A DNA stretch of 26,686 bases from IMG/VR virus record IMGVR_UViG_3300000117_000184, positions 1,034 through 27,719 of that record, one strand, 5' to 3'. Under the pieces are notes generated by a model, which was not told the DNA's origin, did no database searches, and saw only the letters and a program-made list of their open reading frames with translations. This document shows, in pieces, positions 339-13,343 of this stretch. Numbering within the stretch: the first letter of the stretch is position 1; every line of letters begins with the position of its first letter. Origin of the DNA: a virus. The position numbers and the translations under genes were made by a program.

Positions 339-1901
339 ATGGAATACAATCAGCCTAGCGAGATTGTCAAAGATTTAAACTTTGGTGACTTAGCTAAGAA
401 CAGAATATCAGCTGGAGTAGAAAAACTAGCAGGAGCTGTTAAATCTACTTTAGGTGCATCGGGTAAATGTGTTATTTATGAAGATGCTAGAGGTAAACCA
501 GTGATCACAAAAGACGGAGTAACCGTAGCGGAATCGGTTGTCTTGTTTGATCCTGTGGAGAACATAGGAGCTACTCTTATTAAAGAAGCTTCTAGGAATA
601 CAGTTAGGGAGGCAGGTGACGGTACTACTACAGCTATCGTACTTGCCGAGTCCCTATTAAATGAAGTAAACAAAAATTCTGCATATACTACAAGACAAGT
701 AAAATCAGGTATAAACTCTGCTTTAAACAAAGTAAATAAATACCTTGATAAAAATAGCATAGAAGTTTCTGGTAAAATGTTAGACAGTGTTGCTGCTATA
801 TCATGTAACAATGATCAAGAATTAGGTAGCACTATTGCTGAAGCATACAATGTTGTAGGTAAAAACGGTGTTGTATTAATGGAAAGCTCAGAAACAAATG
901 AAACTTACGTACAAACTGTTGATGGTGTACAAATAGACTGCGGTTTAAAGTCACCACATTTTGTAACAGACAAAGATAGAGAGACTTCAATACTAGATAA
1001 TCCATTAGTATTAACAGTTTCATCAGAGATATCAAGCGTAAGAAAAATACAAACTATACTAGAGTATGTTATTAAAAACAAAAGAAGTTTATTAATAGTA
1101 GCTCCAGTAGCGCAGCAAGTTCAATCAGCTTTAATGATGAACAAAGTTAAAGGTAATATTAGTGTTAATATTATTGACACACCTGGCTTTGGTCCTACTA
1201 AAGATGATGCTATAGAAGATTTAGCAATAATTACTGGTGCTAAAGTTATTAGTGAAGAACTTGGTGATGATTTAGATTTAATACAGCCTGATTGTTTAGG
1301 TGAAGTATTAAAATCAGTAACAGATAATAAAAACACTGTACTTACTATAAAAGAAGTTAATAGTGATATTAGTGAAAGAATATCTGATGTTGAAAAGAAA
1401 ATAGATAAAGAAAAAAACGAATTTATAAAAAGAAAATTACAAGATAGACTTAGCGTACTATCTGGTTCTGTCGGTATTGTAAAAGTAGGTGCGAACTCAA
1501 AAGTTGAGTTAAAAGAAAAAAGAGATCGTGTTGAAGATGCAATATATGCTGTAAAAGCAGCATTAAAAGAAGGTATTATTTCTGGTGGTGGCATAGCTTT
1601 ATTAAATGCATCGCAAAACATAAAACCTTCTAACGATTGTGAAAATATATTATTACAAGCAATACGCTCACCTTATAACACTATACTAGAAAATGCAGGT
1701 ATAGAAGACTCAGTTGAACCTTTAAAAAAAGGTTGGGGCTTTAATGTTGTGTCTGGTGAACATGTTAATATGGTAAAAGGTGGGATTATAGATCCTGTAT
1801 TAGTTACAAAGACGGCTTTAAAAAATGCAGTAAGTGTAGTATCAACTATTATATCTGCAGATTGTGTTATATCTAATATGAGGACTAATGAAAGCAATTA
1901 A
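339..1901 (+). CDS. groEL: GroEL-type chaperonin (Cpn60)
   Basis: Group I chaperonin, the ATP-driven folding cage that works with GroES in the cytoplasm. At 520 residues it is a little shorter than bacterial GroEL (about 548). Equatorial ATP-site elements are present: TLG at 37-39, TKDG at 57-60 (D59 matching E. coli D52), GDGTTTA at 93-99 (D94 matching D87), VEDA with D400 (matching D398), GGG at 416-418 and the late GIIDP with D485 (matching D495). The apical domain (about 195-380) is complete. Oddities: the proline after TLG in most GroELs is alanine (A40), and the C-terminal GGM tail is missing, the protein ending NMRTNESN. It overlaps groES by 14 bases. Phage-style leader and neighbours argue that it belongs to the phage. 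It probably folds virion proteins, which is inference. Confidence 0.96.
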   Translation: MEYNQPSEIVKDLNFGDLAKNRISAGVEKLAGAVKSTLGASGKCVIYEDARGKPVITKDGVTVAESVVLFDPVENIGATLIKEASRNTVREAGDGTTTAIVLAESLLNEVNKNSAYTTRQVKSGINSALNKVNKYLDKNSIEVSGKMLDSVAAISCNNDQELGSTIAEAYNVVGKNGVVLMESSETNETYVQTVDGVQIDCGLKSPHFVTDKDRETSILDNPLVLTVSSEISSVRKIQTILEYVIKNKRSLLIVAPVAQQVQSALMMNKVKGNISVNIIDTPGFGPTKDDAIEDLAIITGAKVISEELGDDLDLIQPDCLGEVLKSVTDNKNTVLTIKEVNSDISERISDVEKKIDKEKNEFIKRKLQDRLSVLSGSVGIVKVGANSKVELKEKRDRVEDAIYAVKAALKEGIISGGGIALLNASQNIKPSNDCENILLQAIRSPYNTILENAGIEDSVEPLKKGWGFNVVSGEHVNMVKGGIIDPVLVTKTALKNAVSVVSTIISADCVISNMRTNESN

Positions 1902-2145
1902 TTACTATTTAATAGTAAGTGATATAAAAGAAGAGCAAAAAAAGATTGCTGGACTTATTTTCACAGAGAAGACAGACCTGGATAACCGTTACATTAGAGC
2001 TAAGGTTATCAGCTGCGGCAGTAAGGTCGAGGGTGTCAATGATAAAGACATAGTGTACTATGACAAGCATGCAGGACATGGTATTAACTATGGAGACACC
2101 CTTTATAAAATTATAAGAGCACAAGACGTAGTTCTTGTCGAATAA
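1888..2145 (+). CDS. groES: GroES-type co-chaperonin (Cpn10)
   Basis: Lid of the chaperonin cage. The protein has 85 residues against about 97 in bacteria. It begins MKAINYYLIVSDIKEEQKK. The mobile loop is recognisable with the hydrophobic tripeptide LIF (within AGLIFTEKTD) in place of the usual IVL, followed by the barrel strand AKVISCGSK, the roof-loop region DIVYYDKHAGHG and the closing strand QDVVLVE. Its ATG lies 14 bases before the groEL stop in another frame, so translation is likely coupled. The order groEL then groES is the reverse of the usual bacterial operon. The first part has more G/C-ending codons than groEL. The family call is strong; that it caps this phage GroEL is inferred from adjacency. 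Confidence 0.9.
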   Translation: MKAINYYLIVSDIKEEQKKIAGLIFTEKTDLDNRYIRAKVISCGSKVEGVNDKDIVYYDKHAGHGINYGDTLYKIIRAQDVVLVE

Positions 2146-4520: not shown

Positions 4521-5246
4521 ATGGCTAGAATATCAACTTATGATTTAGATACTAGTGTTTCCAATACTGACAAAGTAATTGGTACAGACTCTAGTAGTAC
4601 AACTACAAAAAATTTTAAATTACAAGATTTAAAAGAATATATATATGCTGGCATTAGTGGCAATATGACTATAGCTTCTGACGGCACAGCGACAACAAGT
4701 AGTTCTGCTACTTTAACTACACCTAGAAATATTGGTGGTGTATCTTTTAATGGATCAACTAATATTACTTTACCGGGTGTAGATACAACTGGTAATCAAG
4801 ATACAACTGGTACAGCAGCAGTTGCTACAACCATAACAGTTGCTGATGAGTCTAGCGATACAACGTGCTTTCCTATATTTACTACTGCAGCAACAGGTGA
4901 CTTAGCACCTAAAAGTGGTAGTAACTTAACCTTCAACTCTAGTAGCGGTGCTTTAACAGCAAGCAACTTTGTAACAACTTCAGATAAAAGATTAAAATCT
5001 GAAATACAACCCATCAAAGAAGGTTTAGAAATAATCAAACAATTTACATCTTACAACTATATTAAAGACAATGAAAGAGAGTCTGGTTTTATAGCTCAAG
5101 AAGTTAAACAAGTAATACCTCATGCGGTATATGAAAATAATCAAGGGTATTTGTCTATGAGTGATAGAGGTGTTCTAGCTCATATGCATAAAGCAATACT
5201 TGAATTAGAACAAAGATTAGTAGCAATAGAAGAAAAACTTAAGTAA
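4521..5246 (+). CDS. Tail fiber/spike protein with C-terminal S74 intramolecular chaperone
   Basis: 241 residues. The N-terminal 60 residues ([20 protein letters not shown]) look like a virion-attachment region. A Thr/Ser/Gly-rich beta segment follows (about 65-150), then [11 protein letters not shown] starting the Peptidase_S74 domain, which in endosialidase-type spikes helps trimerise the fiber and then cuts itself off. The expected catalytic Ser-Lys pair is present with the normal five-residue spacing: S154 and K159. The domain continues with [16 protein letters not shown] and ends in a coiled coil ([16 protein letters not shown]). The fiber body before the cut is short. It is one base upstream of the DUF285 adhesin, so the two probably form the receptor-binding set. 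Confidence 0.88.
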
Positions 5247-5247
5247 T

Positions 5248-6966
5248 ATGGGTGTACCTACTAGCGGTAGTTTTAGTATGTTTGGCAACAGTGATAACAC
5301 TACAATACAAGGTGCTATAACTGAGGGTGGTGGATCTGTAGCTAGCACTGATAATTTAAATGATTTAATAGCCGCATCTAATGTTTCTTTATTTGATACA
5401 ACTTACTCTGGAGATTTAAGTGGTAGTTTAAGTAATGTAACTAACGCAAATCAATATAGAGGTTATCCTACAGCAACAACATCAACAGCCTTTGCATTTA
5501 CTTACACATTCCCTGCAGGTTTTACTTATGCAGCAGTTATAAATCTTGATGGAACTTCTAGTGAATATAACGCTACTTGGACTTGGGGAGATGGTGCTAC
5601 AACAAGTATAACTGATAACAGTCAACTTACAAGAACTATAGCAGATAATAGTGGAGGTGGATCAACAAGCACATATAACGGTAATGTAGTAGCATCAACA
5701 ACTGAAACATTTCCTGAATTTACTATAAACAATTTTAACATAACTGATGTATCTGCTTGGGGTAATATAAAGTGGAGAAAATTAAAACTTAAAGGTGCAA
5801 GTACAAGTTTAAATATAAGTGCTAGTGATACTCCAGATCTTTCAAGATGCACAAGTTTATTTCAATGCTTCATGGGGTTAGGAACTTTTAATGATGACAA
5901 TGTTACTAGTTGGGATGTGAGTAATGTGACAAACATGCAAAGTATGTTTGATGGTTGTGGATCTTTTAATCAATCATGTAATTCTTGGGATGTCAGTAAT
6001 GTTACAGATATGTCGGTGATGTTTGGTGCCTGCGCAGCATATAATCAAAATCTTAATTCTTGGAATACTGGAAGTGTTATAAATATGGTAGGCATGTTCC
6101 AAAATGCTACTAATTTTAATGGTAACATAACTTCTTGGAATACAAGTAGTGTAACTAACATGCAAAGTATGTTTAATAACGCTAGTTCATTTAACCAAAA
6201 CATTGGTAGTTGGAATACAAGTAGTGTAACTACCATGCAAAGTATGTTTAATGGAGCTAGTTCATTTAATCAAGACATTGGTAGTTGGTCTACAAATAAT
6301 GTTACTAATATGCTAGCTTTATTTGCATCTGCTAGTTCTTTTAATCAAAATTTAAATTCTTGGAACGTTGGTAATGTCACGGATATGGGTAGTATGTTTT
6401 TAAATGCTACTGCTTTTAATGGTAATATTACTAGTTGGGATACAAGTAGTGTAACAAAAATGTCAGGGATGTTTTCAGGTGCTACTTCTTTTAATCAAGA
6501 TATTGGAGGTTGGGATACAGACAGTGTTACAACTATGCTGCAAATGTTTTTTAGAGCAACTTCCTTTAATCAAAGTTTAAACACTTGGGATGTAAGTAAT
6601 GTTACTAATATGAATGGTATGTTCCAAGATGCCACTTCTTTTAATAACGGTGGTTTAAATTGGGATACTGGAAGTGTTACAAACATGAGTAATATGTTTA
6701 ACGGTGCTACTTCTTTTAATCAATCAGTTATTTCTAACTGGGATATAGCAGATGTAACAGATATGACAAATATGTTTCTTAATACTGCTTTATCTGATGC
6801 TAATTATAAAACAATTATTATAGCTTGGGCAGCGCAATCAACACAAAACAATGTAACAGCACACTTTGGTAGTGCTCAGTTAACAGACTCTGCAGGTCAA
6901 ACTGCTAGAACAACATTAGTTGGTAGAGGATGGACAATAACAGATGGTGATGGTACACACACTTAA
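5248..6966 (+). CDS. DUF285/BspA-type repeat adhesin, likely tail-associated
   Basis: 572 residues. The N-terminus ([19 protein letters not shown]) resembles phage appendage base regions. A PKD-like stretch around residues 85-125 contains [12 protein letters not shown]. Residues about 215-510 hold about twelve repeats of 24-25 residues with the pattern [10 protein letters not shown]-x-x-MF-x-x-A-x-SFNQ, the DUF285 (BspA-like) surface repeat known from mycoplasma and Bacteroidota adhesins. The C-terminal 55 residues ([15 protein letters not shown]... GWTITDGDG) form a typical cap for this family. There is no signal peptide, which fits a virion protein rather than a secreted one. The likely role is binding a host surface protein or glycan. 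The context, after the S74 fiber, supports this; the receptor is unknown. Confidence 0.88.
5890..6780 (+). repeat. About twelve DUF285 repeats at DNA level (about 72-75 bp each)
   Basis: Units are anchored by the TGG codon of (S/N/G)W(D/N/S), the first at 5911 (residue 222) and the last at 6739 (residue 498). Neighbouring units around 6133-6195 and 6208-6270 are nearly identical in DNA (TGGAATACAAGTAGTGTAAC then CATGCAAAGTATGTTTAA), suggesting recent duplication, while the first and last units are more diverged. It encodes a solenoid, not a CRISPR or iteron array. Confidence 0.85.
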
Positions 6967-7281: not shown

Positions 7282-7483
7282 AATTAGCATTGGTAAAGAT
7301 TATAAAAACGAATCAATGCATTATTCCGTAGGTCAAGAGGTTTATGGAGGACATAAAATTTCTAATATAATTGAAGAAGATGAAGGATATGACATCTATA
7401 TTCAAAAAGATAAAGATGTTATTATTTGGAAAAACTTCAATAAAAATATGGCCATATCTGTAGAATATAATCTAGAATATTAA
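7259..7483 (+). CDS. Small hypothetical beta-rich protein (74 aa)
   Basis: I place the start at ATG 7259 (MSNKLIRKISIGKDYKNESM) rather than the TTG six bases upstream, because ATG is used at every other start here. The overlap with the preceding gene is 23 bases. The sequence suggests a small beta fold: MHYSVGQEVYGG, HKISNIIEED, GYDIYIQ, DVIIWKNFN, ISVEYNLEY. It has no catalytic motif. It shares one base with the next start (TAATG), so it is translationally linked to the double-GroES candidate. The role is unknown. Confidence 0.72.
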   Translation: MSNKLIRKISIGKDYKNESMHYSVGQEVYGGHKISNIIEEDEGYDIYIQKDKDVIIWKNFNKNMAISVEYNLEY

Positions 7484-8088
7484 TGCGAAGTATATATGAT
7501 TTTATTATATCACCTAAAACATCAAGATATAATAATGTTAAAAAAGTAGGTGATAAAAAACTTATACTTAATACAGAAATATATAATCATCAATATGTTA
7601 GTAGGCAAGCTATAGTTAAATCAATACCTATAGTAATACCTACTAAAATACAAGTAGGTGATGAAATAATAGTTCACCACAATGTATTTAGAAGATGGCA
7701 TAATGTAAAAGCTGAAGAGAAAAATAGTAGAAGTTATATAGATGAAAACACTTATTGTGTAAAAGAAGATCAAATATTTTCTTATAAAAGAAATAATAAG
7801 TGGGTAGCTACAGATGGTTTTTGTTTTGTAAAGCCAATAAAATCTACAGATAAATATTCTTCTAATCAAGAAAAAGAGTGCGTAGGTATTTTAAAACAAA
7901 GTAACAAAGCACTTTTAGAATTTGGTTTAAAAGAAGGTGACTTAGTAGGATTTACACCTGTTAGCACTTATGAATTTATTATTGACGGTGAAAGACTATA
8001 TAGAGTTTTAACTAGTCAAATTACAATTAAATATGAATACAAAGGAGACGAAGAAGAATATAATCCAAGCTGGGCAAGTAGCAGTTGA
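7483..8088 (+). CDS. Candidate tandem (double) GroES-like co-chaperonin-fold protein (201 aa)
   Basis: The sequence reads as two GroES-like barrels. First half (about 1-105): IYDFIISPK as the opening strand, a loop with the hydrophobic tripeptide in KKLILNTE at the mobile-loop position, then QAIVKS, VGDEIIVHH (GroES VGDIVIFND), an extended roof loop, and YCVKEDQIFSY (GroES closing strand ESDILAI). Second half (about 113-188): FCFVKPI, CVGILKQS, KEGDLVGFTP, then FIIDGERLYRVLTSQITIKYE, which lines up with GroES from VGDIVIF to DILAIVE; its mobile loop is missing. Tandem Cpn10 proteins are known from chloroplasts (Cpn20). The fold is my alignment by eye and function is unproven. It starts on the previous stop (TAATG) and overlaps the next gene by 56 bases. 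Confidence 0.6.
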   Translation: MRSIYDFIISPKTSRYNNVKKVGDKKLILNTEIYNHQYVSRQAIVKSIPIVIPTKIQVGDEIIVHHNVFRRWHNVKAEEKNSRSYIDENTYCVKEDQIFSYKRNNKWVATDGFCFVKPIKSTDKYSSNQEKECVGILKQSNKALLEFGLKEGDLVGFTPVSTYEFIIDGERLYRVLTSQITIKYEYKGDEEEYNPSWASSS

Positions 8089-8319: not shown

Positions 8320-8709
8320 ATGGCAACATTAACACCCACATTAACATTAGCGAGTACAGATGTAACTTCAGATACATTAAGTTTTTCTGTAACGGATTCA
8401 TTAACAGTAGTTGCTCCTATTGTAGGTATTTCTAAAATAACTGCTGAAGCTAGCAGTGGATCAGATGTAGCACTTGTACCTTCAGGTTCCGCTAATCAAT
8501 ATGTTTATATAAGTCACACAGGATTTCAAGGTGATGGAACTACTGCAACTACGAATCAATTATCAGTTATATTTACCTCAACAGAAGGTCTTAGAATTGC
8601 TGCAGGAGAATTTGCGTTTTTCCCATCTAAATCAAATGTAGTTGTAAATGTTAAGTCTTCTAGTAGCCATACTATATTATTAGAATACGCTTATTTCACA
8701 GCAGGATAA
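8320..8709 (+). CDS. Small beta-rich virion protein, possible head decoration (129 aa)
   Basis: The ATG follows AAAAAAAAAT. The sequence is made of alternating Ser/Thr/Val strands: MATLTPTLTLASTDVTSDT, LTVVAPIVGISKITA, NQYVYISHTGF, QLSVIFTSTEGLRIAAGEF, NVVVNVKSSSSHTILLEYAYF. It has no Lys/Arg patches, cysteines or membrane helix. Proteins of this size and character next to packaging genes are usually head decoration or neck-fiber proteins; that is inference from composition and place. It is one base from the TerL start. The family is not named. Confidence 0.72.
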   Translation: MATLTPTLTLASTDVTSDTLSFSVTDSLTVVAPIVGISKITAEASSGSDVALVPSGSANQYVYISHTGFQGDGTTATTNQLSVIFTSTEGLRIAAGEFAFFPSKSNVVVNVKSSSSHTILLEYAYFTAG

Positions 8710-8710
8710 T

Positions 8711-10933
8711 ATGTATAAACAAACCTTATATAAGGTTATAACTCCAATTAAATTAAATACAATAACAAGACTTAACAAGTCTAAAAAATGGGAGTATGGT
8801 TATAACAAAGAACATGATGTTGTTGTAATTAGTAAAACAGGACAAATTGGTGAAGTATATGAGATACAAAATCTTAAAATAGCTTTACCAAAACAAACCA
8901 ATATTGTTAGGTTTAAAAGCAATAAATGGGAGTATACTGAGTGTCCAAAAGAACTTAGTAAAATAAAAACAATATTTGATTGGAAAGAGTATCCTAATAG
9001 TTTTAAAGAAAAACATATAGAATATATAGAAAATGAGTTCAAAATTAGAGAAGAAGGTTTATGGTACTATAATAACAATAATCCTACTTACATTACTGGC
9101 ACTCATTACATGTACTTGCAATGGAGTAAAATTGACGTCGGCAAACCAGATTATCGTGAAGCCAATAGATTATTCTACATCTTTTGGGAAGCCTGTAAAG
9201 CCGACTTTCGATCTTACGGGATGTGTTATCTTAAGAACAGACGATCCGGCTTCTCATTCATGGCGTCTGGTGAAGTTGTCAACCTTGCGACCATATCCAG
9301 TGATGCGAGGTACGGAATATTGTCCAAGTCCGGTCCCGATGCGAAGAAAATGTTCACCGACAAAGTGGTGCCTATATCCGTCAACTATCCTTTCTTCTTC
9401 AAACCAATACAAGACGGCATGGATAGACCAAAAACAGAACTCGCTTTTAGAGTTCCAGCATCAAAACTTACAAGACGGAGTATTACGAGCACCGACAGGC
9501 CAGAGGATTTACAGGGCTTGGACACCACAATCGACTGGAAAAATACAGGAGATAACTCCTACGATGGAGAAAAAATCAAGTTATTGGTACATGATGAATC
9601 CGGAAAGTGGGAAAAGCCAAACAACATCCTCAACAACTGGAGAGTCACAAAAACAACCTTAAGATTAGGTAGTAGAGTGGTAGGTAAATGCATGATGGGT
9701 AGCACATCAAACTCACTAGACAAAGGTGGAGGAAATTTTAAAAAACTTTATAGAGATTCTGATGTAACTAAAAGAAATAAAAATGGGCAAACTAATTCTG
9801 GTCTTTACAGTCTTTTTATTCCTATGGAATGGAATTACGAAGGGTTTATTGATGAGTACGGTCAACCAGTATTTGACCAACCTGATAAAGAACTTAAAGG
9901 ACCTTATGGGGATTACATAGATGCAGGTATATTAGATCATTGGCAAAATGAAGTTGATGGTTTAAAAAACGATCCTGATGCTTTAAATGAATTTTATAGA
10001 CAGTTTCCAAGAACAGAAGAGCACGCATTTAGAGATGAAACTAAAAACAGTATATTTAACTTAGCTAAAATATACGAGCAAATAGATTATAATGAAGGTG
10101 TTAATAATAATACAGCTATAACTACAGGTAATTTTCAGTGGGTAAATGGTATTAAAGATACAAAAGTTATATTTTATCCAGATCCAAACGGTAGATTTAA
10201 TATTAGCTGGGTACCACCAAGTCATTTACAAAATAAAGTAATACAAACTAACAACGGTAAAAAACCGGGTAATGAACATATAGGTGCTTTTGGATGTGAT
10301 AGTTATGATATATCTGGTACTGTTGACGGTCAAGGTTCTAAAGGAGCTTTACACGGATTAACAAAGTTTTCTATGGAAGACGCTCCGCCTAACAGTTTCT
10401 TTTTAGAATATTTAGCTAGACCTCAAACTGCAGAAATATTTTTTGAAGATGTATTAATGGCATTGGTTTTTTATGGTATGCCTATACTTGCAGAAAATAA
10501 TAAACCTAGACTTTTATACTATTTAAGGCGTAGAGGTTATAGAGGTTATTCTATGAATAGACCAGATAAAGTTTGGAATAATTTATCTAGTACAGAAAAA
10601 GAAATAGGTGGTATACCAAACTCTAGTGAAGATATAAAACAAGCTCACGCAGCGGCAATTGAAATGTATATACAAGAACACGTTGGTTTAAAAAATGAAG
10701 GTGATTATGGTAATATGTATTTTAATAAAACATTAAATGATTGGTCAAAGTTTGATATAAATAATAGAACTAAATTTGATGCATCTATAAGTAGTGGTTT
10801 AGCTGTAATGGCTTGTAATAGAAATTTATATGCACCAAACGTGCAAAAAGAAAAAAGAAAAATAAATATTGGATTTGCTAGATATGAAAATCAAGGCATG
10901 TCATCTAAAATAATAACAGAACAATATGGCTAA
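8711..10933 (+). CDS. terL: Terminase large subunit (TerL), DNA packaging ATPase/nuclease
   Basis: 740 residues, long for TerL because of an N-terminal extension of about 100 residues. The ATPase half shows a deviant Walker A, LKNRRSGFS at 174-182, and Walker B KLLVHDE with D295-E296, then the coupling segment CMMGSTSN around residue 327. The nuclease half has FGCDSYDISG with D530 as the first RNase H-type acidic residue, and FFEDVLMALVFYG downstream. It pumps DNA through the portal and cuts concatemers. It overlaps the portal start by eight bases. About 9123-9660, covering the ATPase core, is markedly GC-richer than the rest of the gene, without any break in the protein. The sequence style matches TerL of crAss-like and related marine phages by recollection. 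Confidence 0.95.
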   Translation: MYKQTLYKVITPIKLNTITRLNKSKKWEYGYNKEHDVVVISKTGQIGEVYEIQNLKIALPKQTNIVRFKSNKWEYTECPKELSKIKTIFDWKEYPNSFKEKHIEYIENEFKIREEGLWYYNNNNPTYITGTHYMYLQWSKIDVGKPDYREANRLFYIFWEACKADFRSYGMCYLKNRRSGFSFMASGEVVNLATISSDARYGILSKSGPDAKKMFTDKVVPISVNYPFFFKPIQDGMDRPKTELAFRVPASKLTRRSITSTDRPEDLQGLDTTIDWKNTGDNSYDGEKIKLLVHDESGKWEKPNNILNNWRVTKTTLRLGSRVVGKCMMGSTSNSLDKGGGNFKKLYRDSDVTKRNKNGQTNSGLYSLFIPMEWNYEGFIDEYGQPVFDQPDKELKGPYGDYIDAGILDHWQNEVDGLKNDPDALNEFYRQFPRTEEHAFRDETKNSIFNLAKIYEQIDYNEGVNNNTAITTGNFQWVNGIKDTKVIFYPDPNGRFNISWVPPSHLQNKVIQTNNGKKPGNEHIGAFGCDSYDISGTVDGQGSKGALHGLTKFSMEDAPPNSFFLEYLARPQTAEIFFEDVLMALVFYGMPILAENNKPRLLYYLRRRGYRGYSMNRPDKVWNNLSSTEKEIGGIPNSSEDIKQAHAAAIEMYIQEHVGLKNEGDYGNMYFNKTLNDWSKFDINNRTKFDASISSGLAVMACNRNLYAPNVQKEKRKINIGFARYENQGMSSKIITEQYG
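9123..9660. other. GC-rich, differently coded segment inside terL with an open overlapping frame
   Basis: By hand count 9181-9660 is about 45% G+C (214 of 480), while 9001-9060 is 20% (12 of 60) and 9721-9780 is 25%. In the TerL frame third positions shift to C/G (GTC, GGC, TCC, GCG, AAC, TTC). A +1-frame reading from ATG 9033 stays open for 209 codons and stops at 9660-9662, just where composition returns to normal. Recombination from a GC-richer relative or overprinting are both possible. Confidence 0.75.
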
Positions 10934-13343
10934 TTCTACAAAAAATTATTTTCCCAGCCAAGTAGTTAGTGATCTTGAAAAAATGAGTTCAGAATATGGA
11001 CTTAAAGTTGCTAAAGCTATAGAAAGCGAGTGGTTTTATAGTGATAATCAAACTACAAGATATAAAAGTAACTACAATAGTTATCGTAGGCTTAGGCTTT
11101 ATGCTAGAGGAGAACAGCCTGTACAAAAATATAAAGATGAATTATCAATTAACGGTGATTTATCTTATCTTAATTTAGACTGGAAACCAGTACCAATAAT
11201 ACCAAAGTTTGTAGATATAGTTGTAAACGGTATATCTGAAAGAACATATGATATAAAAGCTTATACTCAAGATCCTTTTGGGATTGAACAAAGAACTAAG
11301 TATATGGAAGATATACTTATGGATATGAGAACTAAAGAGTTAGATGCTTTTGTTTTAGATAGTTTTGGTATAAATATATCTAATGTAGATAAAAATGAAT
11401 TACCAGAAACAAAAGAAGAACTTGAGTTGCACATGCAACTTACATATAAACAAGCTATTGAAATAGCAGAAGAACAAGCAATAAATACTATTTTAGAAAC
11501 AAACAAATATGATTTAATAAGAAAAAGAGTTAATTATGATTTAACTGTTTTAGGTATTGGTTGCGTTAAAAATAGTTTTACAGAGTCTGAAGGGCTTAAA
11601 GTAGATTATGTTGATCCAGTAGATTTAGTATATTCTTATACTGATTCACCTTACTTTGAAGATATATATTATGTAGGTGAATTAAAGACAGTAACAATTA
11701 ACGAGTTAAAAAAAGAGTTTCCAGATTTAACAAACGATGATTTAAAAGAAATACAAAACTATTCAAGTACAGTAAAAAATTATGGTAGTAGATACCATTA
11801 TGATCAAAGAGATAACAACCAAATAGATGTTTTATATTTTAATTATAAAACATACATGAATGAGGTTTATAAAGTAAAAACAACAGGTACTGGTGGTAGT
11901 AAAGTTATAGTTAAAGATGATACATTTAATCCTCCAGTAGAAATTTTAGATGAAAATTTTGAAAAAGTTTCTAGATCACTAGAAGTTTTATATGAAGGTG
12001 TTATGACTTTAGGTAGTAGCAAGCTTTTAAAATGGGAGATGGCTACTAATATGATGCGACCTAAGAGCGACAATACTAAAGTTAAAATGAATTACAGTAT
12101 TGTTGCACCTCGTATGTACAATGGTAGAGTTGAATCTTTAGTTAGCAGAATAACTGGTTTTGCTGATATGATACAGCTAACTCATTTAAAGCTACAACAA
12201 GTAATGTCTAGGATGATACCAGATGGCGTTTATTTAGATGCTGATGGCATAGCAGAAGTTGATCTTGGTAATGGAACAAACTATAATCCACAAGAAGCAC
12301 TTAATATGTTTTTTCAAACTGGTAGTATTATAGGTAGATCACTTACATCAGATGGTGATATTAATAGAGGTAAAGTACCTATACAAGAAATAGCTAGTGG
12401 TAATGGTGGTGCTAAAATGCAAAGCTTAATAGCAAATTACAATTATTACTTGCAAATGATAAGAGATGTTACTGGTTTAAATGAAGCAAGAGACGGTAGC
12501 ACACCATCAAAAGATGCTTTAGTTGGAGTTCAAAAACTTGCAGCAGCAAATTCTAATACAGCAACTAGACATATATTACAGTCAGGTTTATTTTTAACTT
12601 CAGAACTTGCAGAGTGTATTTCACTTAGAATATCTGATATAATAGAATATGCACCATCAAGAGATGCATTTATACAAAGTATAGGCGTTCACAATGTAGC
12701 AACATTAGAAGAGATGTCTAATTTACATATACATGATTTTGGTATATTTATACAATTATCACCTGATGAAGAAGAAAAACAAATACTTGAAAATAACATA
12801 CAGGCAGCTGTAGCTCAAAAAGGTATAGATATTGAAGATGCTATTGATTTAAGAGAAATAAAAAATATAAAACTTGCAAATCAATTACTTAAGATAAGAA
12901 GAAAAAAGAAACAACAAAGAGATCAACAAGTTGCTCAAGAAAACATACAGGCTCAAGCTCAAGCAAATGCTCAAGCACAACAAGTTGCAGCACAAGCTGA
13001 AGTAGAAAAACAACAAGCATTAGTACAAGTTAATGGTGAATTAGAAAAGCTTAAAGGTCAAATAGAACAACAAAAAATGCAACAAGAAATTGCTGCTAAA
13101 AAAGAATTAATGCAGCTAGAGTTTCAAATGAATATGCAATTAAAACAAATGGAAGTTGAAGCTCAAAAGAGTAAAGACACAAATAAAGAAGATAGAAAAG
13201 ATAATAGAACAAAAATACAGGCAACTCAACAGTCTGAGTTAATTGATCAAAGAAAAAATCAAACATCACCTAAAAACTTTGAATCAGCAGGTAATGATAT
13301 ATTAGGTGGTAATTTTAACTTAGGTGCTTTTGATCCTAGATAA
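10926..13343 (+). CDS. Portal protein
   Basis: 805 residues, a size typical of crAss-like portals. The body (about 1-640) is mixed helix and strand, with blocks such as RLYARGEQPVQKYK and WKPVPIIPKFVDIVVNGISE near the N-terminus, YDLTVLGIGCVKNSF around 205, and IQEIASGNGGAKMQSLIANY and RDVTGLNEARDGS in the crown-forming C-terminal half. Residues about 655-770 are a long Gln/Ala/Lys-rich coiled coil (RRKKKQQRDQQVAQENIQAQ), and the end is GGNFNLGAFDPR. It forms the dodecameric DNA channel at one capsid vertex and docks TerL during packaging. It begins within the last codons of terL (eight-base overlap). The identification rests on size, position and family likeness. Confidence 0.9.
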   Translation: MANSTKNYFPSQVVSDLEKMSSEYGLKVAKAIESEWFYSDNQTTRYKSNYNSYRRLRLYARGEQPVQKYKDELSINGDLSYLNLDWKPVPIIPKFVDIVVNGISERTYDIKAYTQDPFGIEQRTKYMEDILMDMRTKELDAFVLDSFGINISNVDKNELPETKEELELHMQLTYKQAIEIAEEQAINTILETNKYDLIRKRVNYDLTVLGIGCVKNSFTESEGLKVDYVDPVDLVYSYTDSPYFEDIYYVGELKTVTINELKKEFPDLTNDDLKEIQNYSSTVKNYGSRYHYDQRDNNQIDVLYFNYKTYMNEVYKVKTTGTGGSKVIVKDDTFNPPVEILDENFEKVSRSLEVLYEGVMTLGSSKLLKWEMATNMMRPKSDNTKVKMNYSIVAPRMYNGRVESLVSRITGFADMIQLTHLKLQQVMSRMIPDGVYLDADGIAEVDLGNGTNYNPQEALNMFFQTGSIIGRSLTSDGDINRGKVPIQEIASGNGGAKMQSLIANYNYYLQMIRDVTGLNEARDGSTPSKDALVGVQKLAAANSNTATRHILQSGLFLTSELAECISLRISDIIEYAPSRDAFIQSIGVHNVATLEEMSNLHIHDFGIFIQLSPDEEEKQILENNIQAAVAQKGIDIEDAIDLREIKNIKLANQLLKIRRKKKQQRDQQVAQENIQAQAQANAQAQQVAAQAEVEKQQALVQVNGELEKLKGQIEQQKMQQEIAAKKELMQLEFQMNMQLKQMEVEAQKSKDTNKEDRKDNRTKIQATQQSELIDQRKNQTSPKNFESAGNDILGGNFNLGAFDPR

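Follow-up and report, generated by a model that had tools for sequence, protein, structure and literature searches.

It is an old question why some phages encode a chaperonin of their own although their host has one. It is raised anew by a groEL-groES pair in the window analysed here, a stretch of 26,686 bases (positions 1034-27719 of the 27,719-base IMG/VR virus record IMGVR_UViG_3300000117_000184). The clade to which this pair belongs offers a testable answer in marine and freshwater phages: a cage with altered wall charge, a short roof and a second lid-like protein. Our preferred reading, to which we assign a probability of roughly 0.65, is that the locus encodes a phage-private chaperonin for virion proteins, in which a tandem co-chaperonin-like protein, here called ES2, would act as second lid. 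The features on which the analysis is based are collected in Table 1.

Table 1. Features of the window discussed in the text (window positions)
Feature	Position	Strand	Evidence
Phage GroEL (Cpn60), 520 aa	339..1901	+	Pfam Cpn60_TCP1 6.4e-52; phrog_5725 (groEL) 1.1e-131
A40, residue after TLG (E. coli P33)	456..458	+	A in 141/141 clade GroELs; P in 78/78 aligned bacteria
Overlap of groEL end and groES start, 14 bases	1888..1901	+	Sequence
Phage GroES (Cpn10), 85 aa, shortened roof	1888..2145	+	Pfam Cpn10 1.4e-5; phrog_3188 (groES) 1.4e-10
GroES mobile loop, aa 13-34; tripeptide LIF at 1954-1962	1924..1989	+	Low-confidence loop between strands in model
ES2, second co-chaperonin-like protein, 201 aa, two predicted tandem GroES folds	7483..8088	+	phrog_13932 'co-chaperonin GroES' 5.2e-19, residues 1-180
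ES2 N-terminal GroES-like domain, aa 1-104	7483..7794	+	4pj1_1 Z 7.3, rmsd 4.3 over 82; 3nx6 Z 6.9, rmsd 1.8 over 62
ES2 N-domain long loop, aa 12-42; LIL at 7561-7569 (aa 27-29)	7516..7608	+	188 ES2 proteins
ES2 C-terminal GroES-like domain, aa 106-186, mobile-loop position shortened	7798..8040	+	GroES 4pkn_W Z 7.7, rmsd 2.6 over 78
Terminase large subunit	8711..10933	+	phrog_6681 1.4e-172; 62.7% identity to MW202828
Portal protein	10926..13343	+	phrog_6547 6.7e-148
Virion structural protein, 478 aa	16728..18164	+	phrog_13704 6.4e-96; 38% identical over its length to phi38:1 gp093

Arrangement and origin of the groEL-groES pair

The groEL product matched Cpn60_TCP1 over residues 30-513 with 177 bits (cut-off 34.3), that is, as a full-length Cpn60 domain, and the groES product scored 25.4 bits for Cpn10 (cut-off 21.1). 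A sequence-only reading of this DNA had described groEL as preceding and overlapping groES, in reversal of the usual bacterial operon. This arrangement is real, and the same gene order holds in every one of the 79 retrieved relatives with a locus long enough to include GroES. The overlap in these relatives is 17 nt (n = 43), 14 nt (n = 32) or 1 nt (n = 3), one further case having a misplaced GroES or GroEL end, and GroES is 85 residues long in 76 of them. As a bacterial control 80 loci were examined, and groES preceded groEL in all 71 that had a recognisable groES. The overlap of the phage genes probably results in translational coupling. Among the GenBank relatives, groEL also comes before groES in the elemo and Manatee Spring phages, and probably in Panino, whereas the order is groES before groEL in phi38:1 and immuto. 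Phage GroEL/GroES with variable gene order has already been published for virioplankton, and the pair itself is not new: viral gene order was linked there to GroEL phylogeny, according to the passage of PMC9611531 that cites Marine et al. 2017, and GroEL has been reported from genomes of marine flavobacterial phages that are relatives of phi38:1 (PMC5332604).

PHROG matches identified terminase, portal and structural genes downstream of groEL-groES on the same strand. By its sequence, the terminase appears to be the neighbour that ties the window locus to the elemo, phi38:1 and Manatee Spring phages, and from the hosts of these relatives we infer that the window virus is a tailed phage of Bacteroidota. 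The window shares with phi38:1/Callevirus, elemo and group 2 of Nishimura 2017 (PMC5332604) homologous terminase, portal and structural genes, a phage-specific GroEL, a cpn10 and a tandem gene upstream of the terminase. The GroELs of this marine flavobacterial phage group (phi38:1, elemo) are 36-38% identical to that of the window, and in phi38:1 the cpn10 lies before GroEL with one gene between them, unlike the groEL-then-groES order with 14-17 nt overlap in the window clade. The 478-residue structural protein is the probable major capsid protein and a likely client of the phage chaperonin. A 129-aa ORF (window 8320-8709) precedes the terminase gene; the phi38:1 and elemo terminases are more than 100 residues longer, and this ORF may be the split-off N-terminal part of such a longer terminase.

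Complete phage chaperonins had also been called uncommon. This holds for GenBank phages, among which 274 of 50,697 records contained a GroEL match, some of these being mis-filed bacterial contigs, but not for the marine clade, as at least 269 contigs in an IMG/VR scan encode relatives of the window GroEL. The records of Acinetobacter phage MD-2021a and of Salmonella contigs in the phage collection are pieces of bacterial chromosome with ordinary groES-groEL operons.

An assembly error, or a host gene captured recently, had been put forward as the explanation to adopt if both proteins nested tightly within one bacterial genus in an ordinary operon context. Instead, the clade stands apart from every bacterium sampled and is surrounded by phage genes. 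The best bacterial GroELs among the matches listed are 37-42% identical to the window GroEL and come from many phyla. In a 67-row GroEL tree one branch (support 99/83) sets off the marine clade, and another (99/97) has all 38 bacterial rows behind it, along with nine other phage rows. In addition, dozens of independent contigs show the identical arrangement. Because the phage clade is monophyletic and lies outside all sampled bacterial GroELs, and nothing was found in favour of capture or misassembly, we regard this explanation as ruled out, with a negligible residual probability. The placement of the phi38:1, elemo and Panino GroELs is unsure in the 67-row tree, where their branches are long. 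In a second tree, from which the longest rows of the first (pTD1, cr108 and GR28A) were left out, the GroELs of all phages with a tandem protein formed one clade (100/97), the branches of phi38:1, Panino and elemo still being long.

Altered contacts in GroEL and GroES

We aligned 141 distinct GroELs of the clade with 78 bacterial GroELs, and the window GroEL also with an enterobacterial reference. Window residues D59, D94, D400 and D485 align with E. coli D52, D87, D398 and D495, and all four of these ATP-site aspartates are kept in the window and throughout the 141 clade proteins, in agreement with the sequence-only reading. The same reading had pointed to alanine in place of the proline after TLG and to the absence of a GGM tail. 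The alanine proved to be a property of the whole clade (Table 1); TLGAS is present in 79/79 complete proteins of the retrieved relatives, and in phi38:1 and Panino. The GGM tail is indeed absent from the window GroEL, as it is from nearly all GroELs of the clade. Tail loss had to be rejected as a special feature, however, as most other phage GroELs checked have no GGM either. Being common to other phage GroELs, tail loss and P33A are weak evidence of the specialisation that had been derived from them. Specialisation as such is supported, mainly by features beyond that account, namely, in GroEL, the wall charge, the swapped 83-327 pair and the lost R197-E386 pair, in GroES the short roof and lengthened mobile loop, and besides these the tandem co-chaperonin. 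These may reflect a cage adapted to phage proteins.

For the wall, groove and latch positions of GroEL we take the roles to be those of established GroEL work, from which the effect of the changes in the phage protein is inferred. The residue pair 83-327 is D-K in 76 of the 77 bacterial sequences with both residues. In the phage clade it is KD in 50, RD in 48 and RE in 3 of 141 proteins, that is, K/R-D/E in at least 101, and the alignment suggests that this equatorial-apical salt bridge of the latch is retained with reversed charge. The pair 197-386, which is RE or KE in bacteria, is S/C-K in 136/141 phage GroELs, and R197-E386 is thus lost; both latch pairs, D83-K327 and R197-E386, are restated in PMC7185714. 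On the cavity side, K226 is replaced by E in 133 and E252 by P in 107 of the 141 proteins; all 141 lack D253 and have a hydrophobic residue in place of D361, and 137 have a basic one (K or R) in place of E363. The acidic wall of the GroEL cavity is, judging from the aligned residues, lost or reversed in the clade. The apical groove retains L237 and S201, and the V263 and V264 positions remain mostly hydrophobic, while L234 is Q in all 141 proteins, K replaces L259 in 133 and H replaces Y203 in 132 of them. In the inter-ring region R452 is not conserved, the E434 position is deleted and S463/V464 are variable, with the qualification that this region is poorly aligned and its residues shifted between alignments.

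These contacts bear on the possibility that the genes merely add ordinary chaperonin capacity, interchangeable with that of the host. The intact ATP site and fold are consistent with it, as is the ability of T4 gp31 to replace host GroES (PMC6318259). However, the clade-wide reversal of latch and wall charge, with a K386 that would face R197 of the host protein, speaks against mixed rings, and the retention of a second lid-like protein also argues against an interchangeable system, which we consider improbable.

The AlphaFold2 model of GroES (pLDDT 81.6) matched Cpn10 1wnr_G with Z 11.7 and an rmsd of 1.5 over 75 residues. Its mobile loop has 27 residues, compared with 25 in nearly all bacteria, and AGLIFT of the window aligns with bacterial GGIVLT; the earlier description of a short GroES with LIF, here in place of IVL, was therefore correct. 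The window protein has no full roof hairpin, its 44-57 stretch comprising 5 residues versus mostly 9-15 in bacteria. The hairpin is common in Cpn10 but not defining, and it is absent in gp31. A short roof was also present in 4 of 72 bacterial GroES rows, reference row included, and is thus rare but not unique to phages. A short roof is also seen in the product of gene 261 of Bacteroides phage DAC16 (MT074137.1), which lies directly upstream of an unannotated GroEL; its deposited annotation is hypothetical, but Pfam identifies it clearly as GroES (Cpn10 1.6e-21).

The closest parallel to these GroES features is offered by T4 gp31, which likewise has the Cpn10 fold with missing or short roof loops and a longer mobile loop (PMC6318259). 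The window model superimposes on gp31 (2cgt_O) with Z 9.4 and an rmsd of 1.6 over 64 residues, with only 12% of the structurally aligned residues identical. The capsid protein gp23 is served by gp31, and the missing roof loops and longer mobile loop of the latter are thought to accommodate the 56-kDa capsid protein (PMC6318259). The two systems differ in that gp31 uses host GroEL, whereas the window phage encodes its own.

A tandem co-chaperonin-like protein near the terminase gene

ES2 is encoded by a gene that was absent from the sequence-only account of the chaperonin genes. Its model (pLDDT 82.7, pTM 0.79) contains two GroES-like barrels. The best PDB match was 7ekq_R (Foldseek E 3.2e-5; Z 9.8, rmsd 4.0 over 155, model residues 1-185), which is the algal Cpn20 co-chaperonin subunit of an entry titled CrClpP-S2c; alcohol dehydrogenase domains, which have a related fold, scored below it (Z about 5). 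At the level of sequence, the C half of window ES2 remained under the Pfam Cpn10 cut-off (E 0.11), the N half had no Pfam match, and hhalign of the N domain with a GroES alignment gave a weak signal (E 0.0039 for that single comparison). The two halves did not match each other by hhalign, nor did an ES2 profile match PDB chains by sequence. The C halves of the homologues phi38:1 gp089 and phi19:3 gp101, on the other hand, exceed the Pfam cut-off. As the sequence signal to GroES is weak, the assignment rests on the predicted structure, the PHROG match and the Pfam matches of the relatives, which together point to two Cpn10 folds in tandem.

In 188 distinct ES2 proteins the N-domain loop is 27-32 residues long and mostly carries a hydrophobic triplet (LIL, FIV or LIV), and the C-domain loop has 13-15 residues in nearly all. 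In the window these loops have 31 residues with LIL and 13 residues without a triplet, respectively. Since a mobile loop is present in one domain only and the C domain is without most of it, ES2 is not a symmetric Cpn20 and we call it Cpn20-like. Chloroplast and apicoplast Cpn20 and, judging from its predicted model, ES2 are both about 20 kDa with two head-to-tail Cpn10 domains. They are 10-14% identical, and they differ in that both domains of Cpn20 have retained mobile and roof loops (PMC3542282), whereas the C-domain mobile loop of ES2 is short and ES2 is a phage gene beside the terminase. Cpn20 is described only from plastids and the apicoplast (PMC3542282). Our targeted searches, within incomplete literature coverage, likewise returned plastid and apicoplast cases and no description of a tandem Cpn10 in phages; within that coverage, a double lid of the ES2 type was previously described only from plastids. 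GenBank names such tandem genes plainly cpn10 or GroES, and a cpn10 is among the eight core proteins of Pervagoviridae given by Bartlau et al., the consulted part of which does not specify which cpn10 is meant (PMC8776804). We claim as new the ES2 tandem protein, the roof and loop changes of GroES, and the latch and wall charge changes of GroEL. A double-domain co-chaperonin outside plastids would help to resolve how Cpn20-like lids meet a seven-fold ring.

GroEL, GroES and ES2, one of each, were present in all 28 long contigs (37-100 kb), 12 of which had been found through ES2 alone, and the three genes stay together across marine and freshwater phages. GroEL occurs without the tandem protein in immuto, DAC16, cr108 and four Vibrio phages, and Gundel_1 has neither. 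Cellulophaga phage phi19:3 has an ES2 homologue, gp101 (KC821608.1 45084-45686, upstream of the terminase), and no Cpn60 anywhere in its 75,994-base record. The tandem protein is therefore not bound to phage GroEL in every lineage, and that of phi19:3 may act on host GroEL.

These results also bear on a reading in which the tandem protein is no lid but serves head assembly or DNA packaging with a reused GroES fold, so that the folding machine would consist of GroEL and GroES only. In the window, as in elemo, Manatee, phi38:1 and phi19:3, the gene of the tandem protein lies closely or directly upstream of that of the large terminase, which would suit such a role, as would the occurrence of the protein without GroEL in phi19:3, the short C-terminal mobile loop, and invariant residues beyond the GroES features (R15, Y16, N18, HHN 65-67 and F69). 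Against it, the protein always accompanies GroEL and GroES in the long contigs, the hydrophobic N-domain loop is kept, phi38:1 gp089 is not annotated as a virion structural protein, and phi19:3 gp101 has mobile-loop-like stretches in both domains (SGLELH and PSLIYIPE), as expected of a lid for host GroEL. We consider reuse without a lid function unlikely, and incline, with some reservation, towards binding of the tandem protein to GroEL. The nearly invariant HHN-x-F stretch of ES2 (aa 65-69, window 7675-7689) and R15, Y16 and N18 fall outside what the GroES fold explains, and are possibly a partner or metal site.

Proposed cycle and comparison with other phage chaperonins

The phage GroEL and GroES very probably act as a chaperonin pair. 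In the proposed cycle, the GroEL ring would take up unfolded virion proteins, among them the capsid protein of about 52 kDa, and the short-roofed GroES would close a roomier cage, as does T4 gp31. ATP would drive the cycle through a latch with the charge-reversed equatorial-apical salt bridge, and the changed GroEL contacts would make mixed rings with host GroEL unfavourable. The tandem protein would form the second lid, which may serve a particular assembly client and would dock via the hydrophobic N-domain loop. A more elaborate version, which we put forward only tentatively, is a three-part chaperonin of Bacteroidota phages: a non-mixing GroEL with reversed latch would be served by the short-roofed GroES and by an asymmetric tandem lid with one mobile loop, each for different assembly clients, and in phi19:3 the tandem lid alone would work on host GroEL. 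In the cultivated relative Cellulophaga phage phi38:1 GroEL has already been seen in proteomes: the protein was detected in infected cells and in free-virion samples, the latter possibly by carry-over from the lysate (PMC13288928).

Several observations count against the preferred reading as a whole. A few bacterial GroES proteins have short roofs as well, the C-domain loop of ES2 is mostly lost, the tandem protein of phi19:3 occurs without any GroEL, and the chaperonin of phage phiEL functions in the absence of GroES and showed no encapsulation (PMC7185714). By analogy with the proposal for phiEL, the phage GroEL could bind and release its substrates without encapsulation, GroES being of minor importance. 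The polar changes in the apical groove (Y203H, L234Q, L259K), the loss of R197-E386, likewise not conserved in phiEL, and the non-conserved ring-ring contact R452 fit this proposal. However, a dedicated GroES is always present, its gene usually overlapping groEL, unlike in phiEL; L237 is kept and the V263 and V264 positions are hydrophobic in nearly all proteins; and the window GroEL is much nearer to bacterial GroEL than the jumbo-phage chaperonins are. We therefore judge a cycle without encapsulation to be very improbable. The jumbo-phage chaperonins of phiEL, OBP and AR9 are also phage Cpn60 proteins, and in phiEL both D83-K327 and R197-E386 are altered as well (PMC7185714), but they are far more divergent (AR9 26% and OBP 27% identity, in partial matches). 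Moreover, the phiEL chaperonin showed no interaction with E. coli GroES, whereas the window phage encodes GroES beside GroEL.

Three further genes of the window are of note. A small basic protein with KKGPKMGH-like repeats is encoded directly upstream of groEL (156-311, with a 24-base tandem array at 177-263). Between groES and the ES2 gene, a tail-fibre-like protein (4521-5246), which carries a Peptidase_S74 intramolecular chaperone domain at its C terminus, is followed by a 572-aa DUF285 repeat protein (5248-6966, Pfam 5e-125; 75-base tandem array at 6135-6350), which is possibly a surface or adhesion protein.
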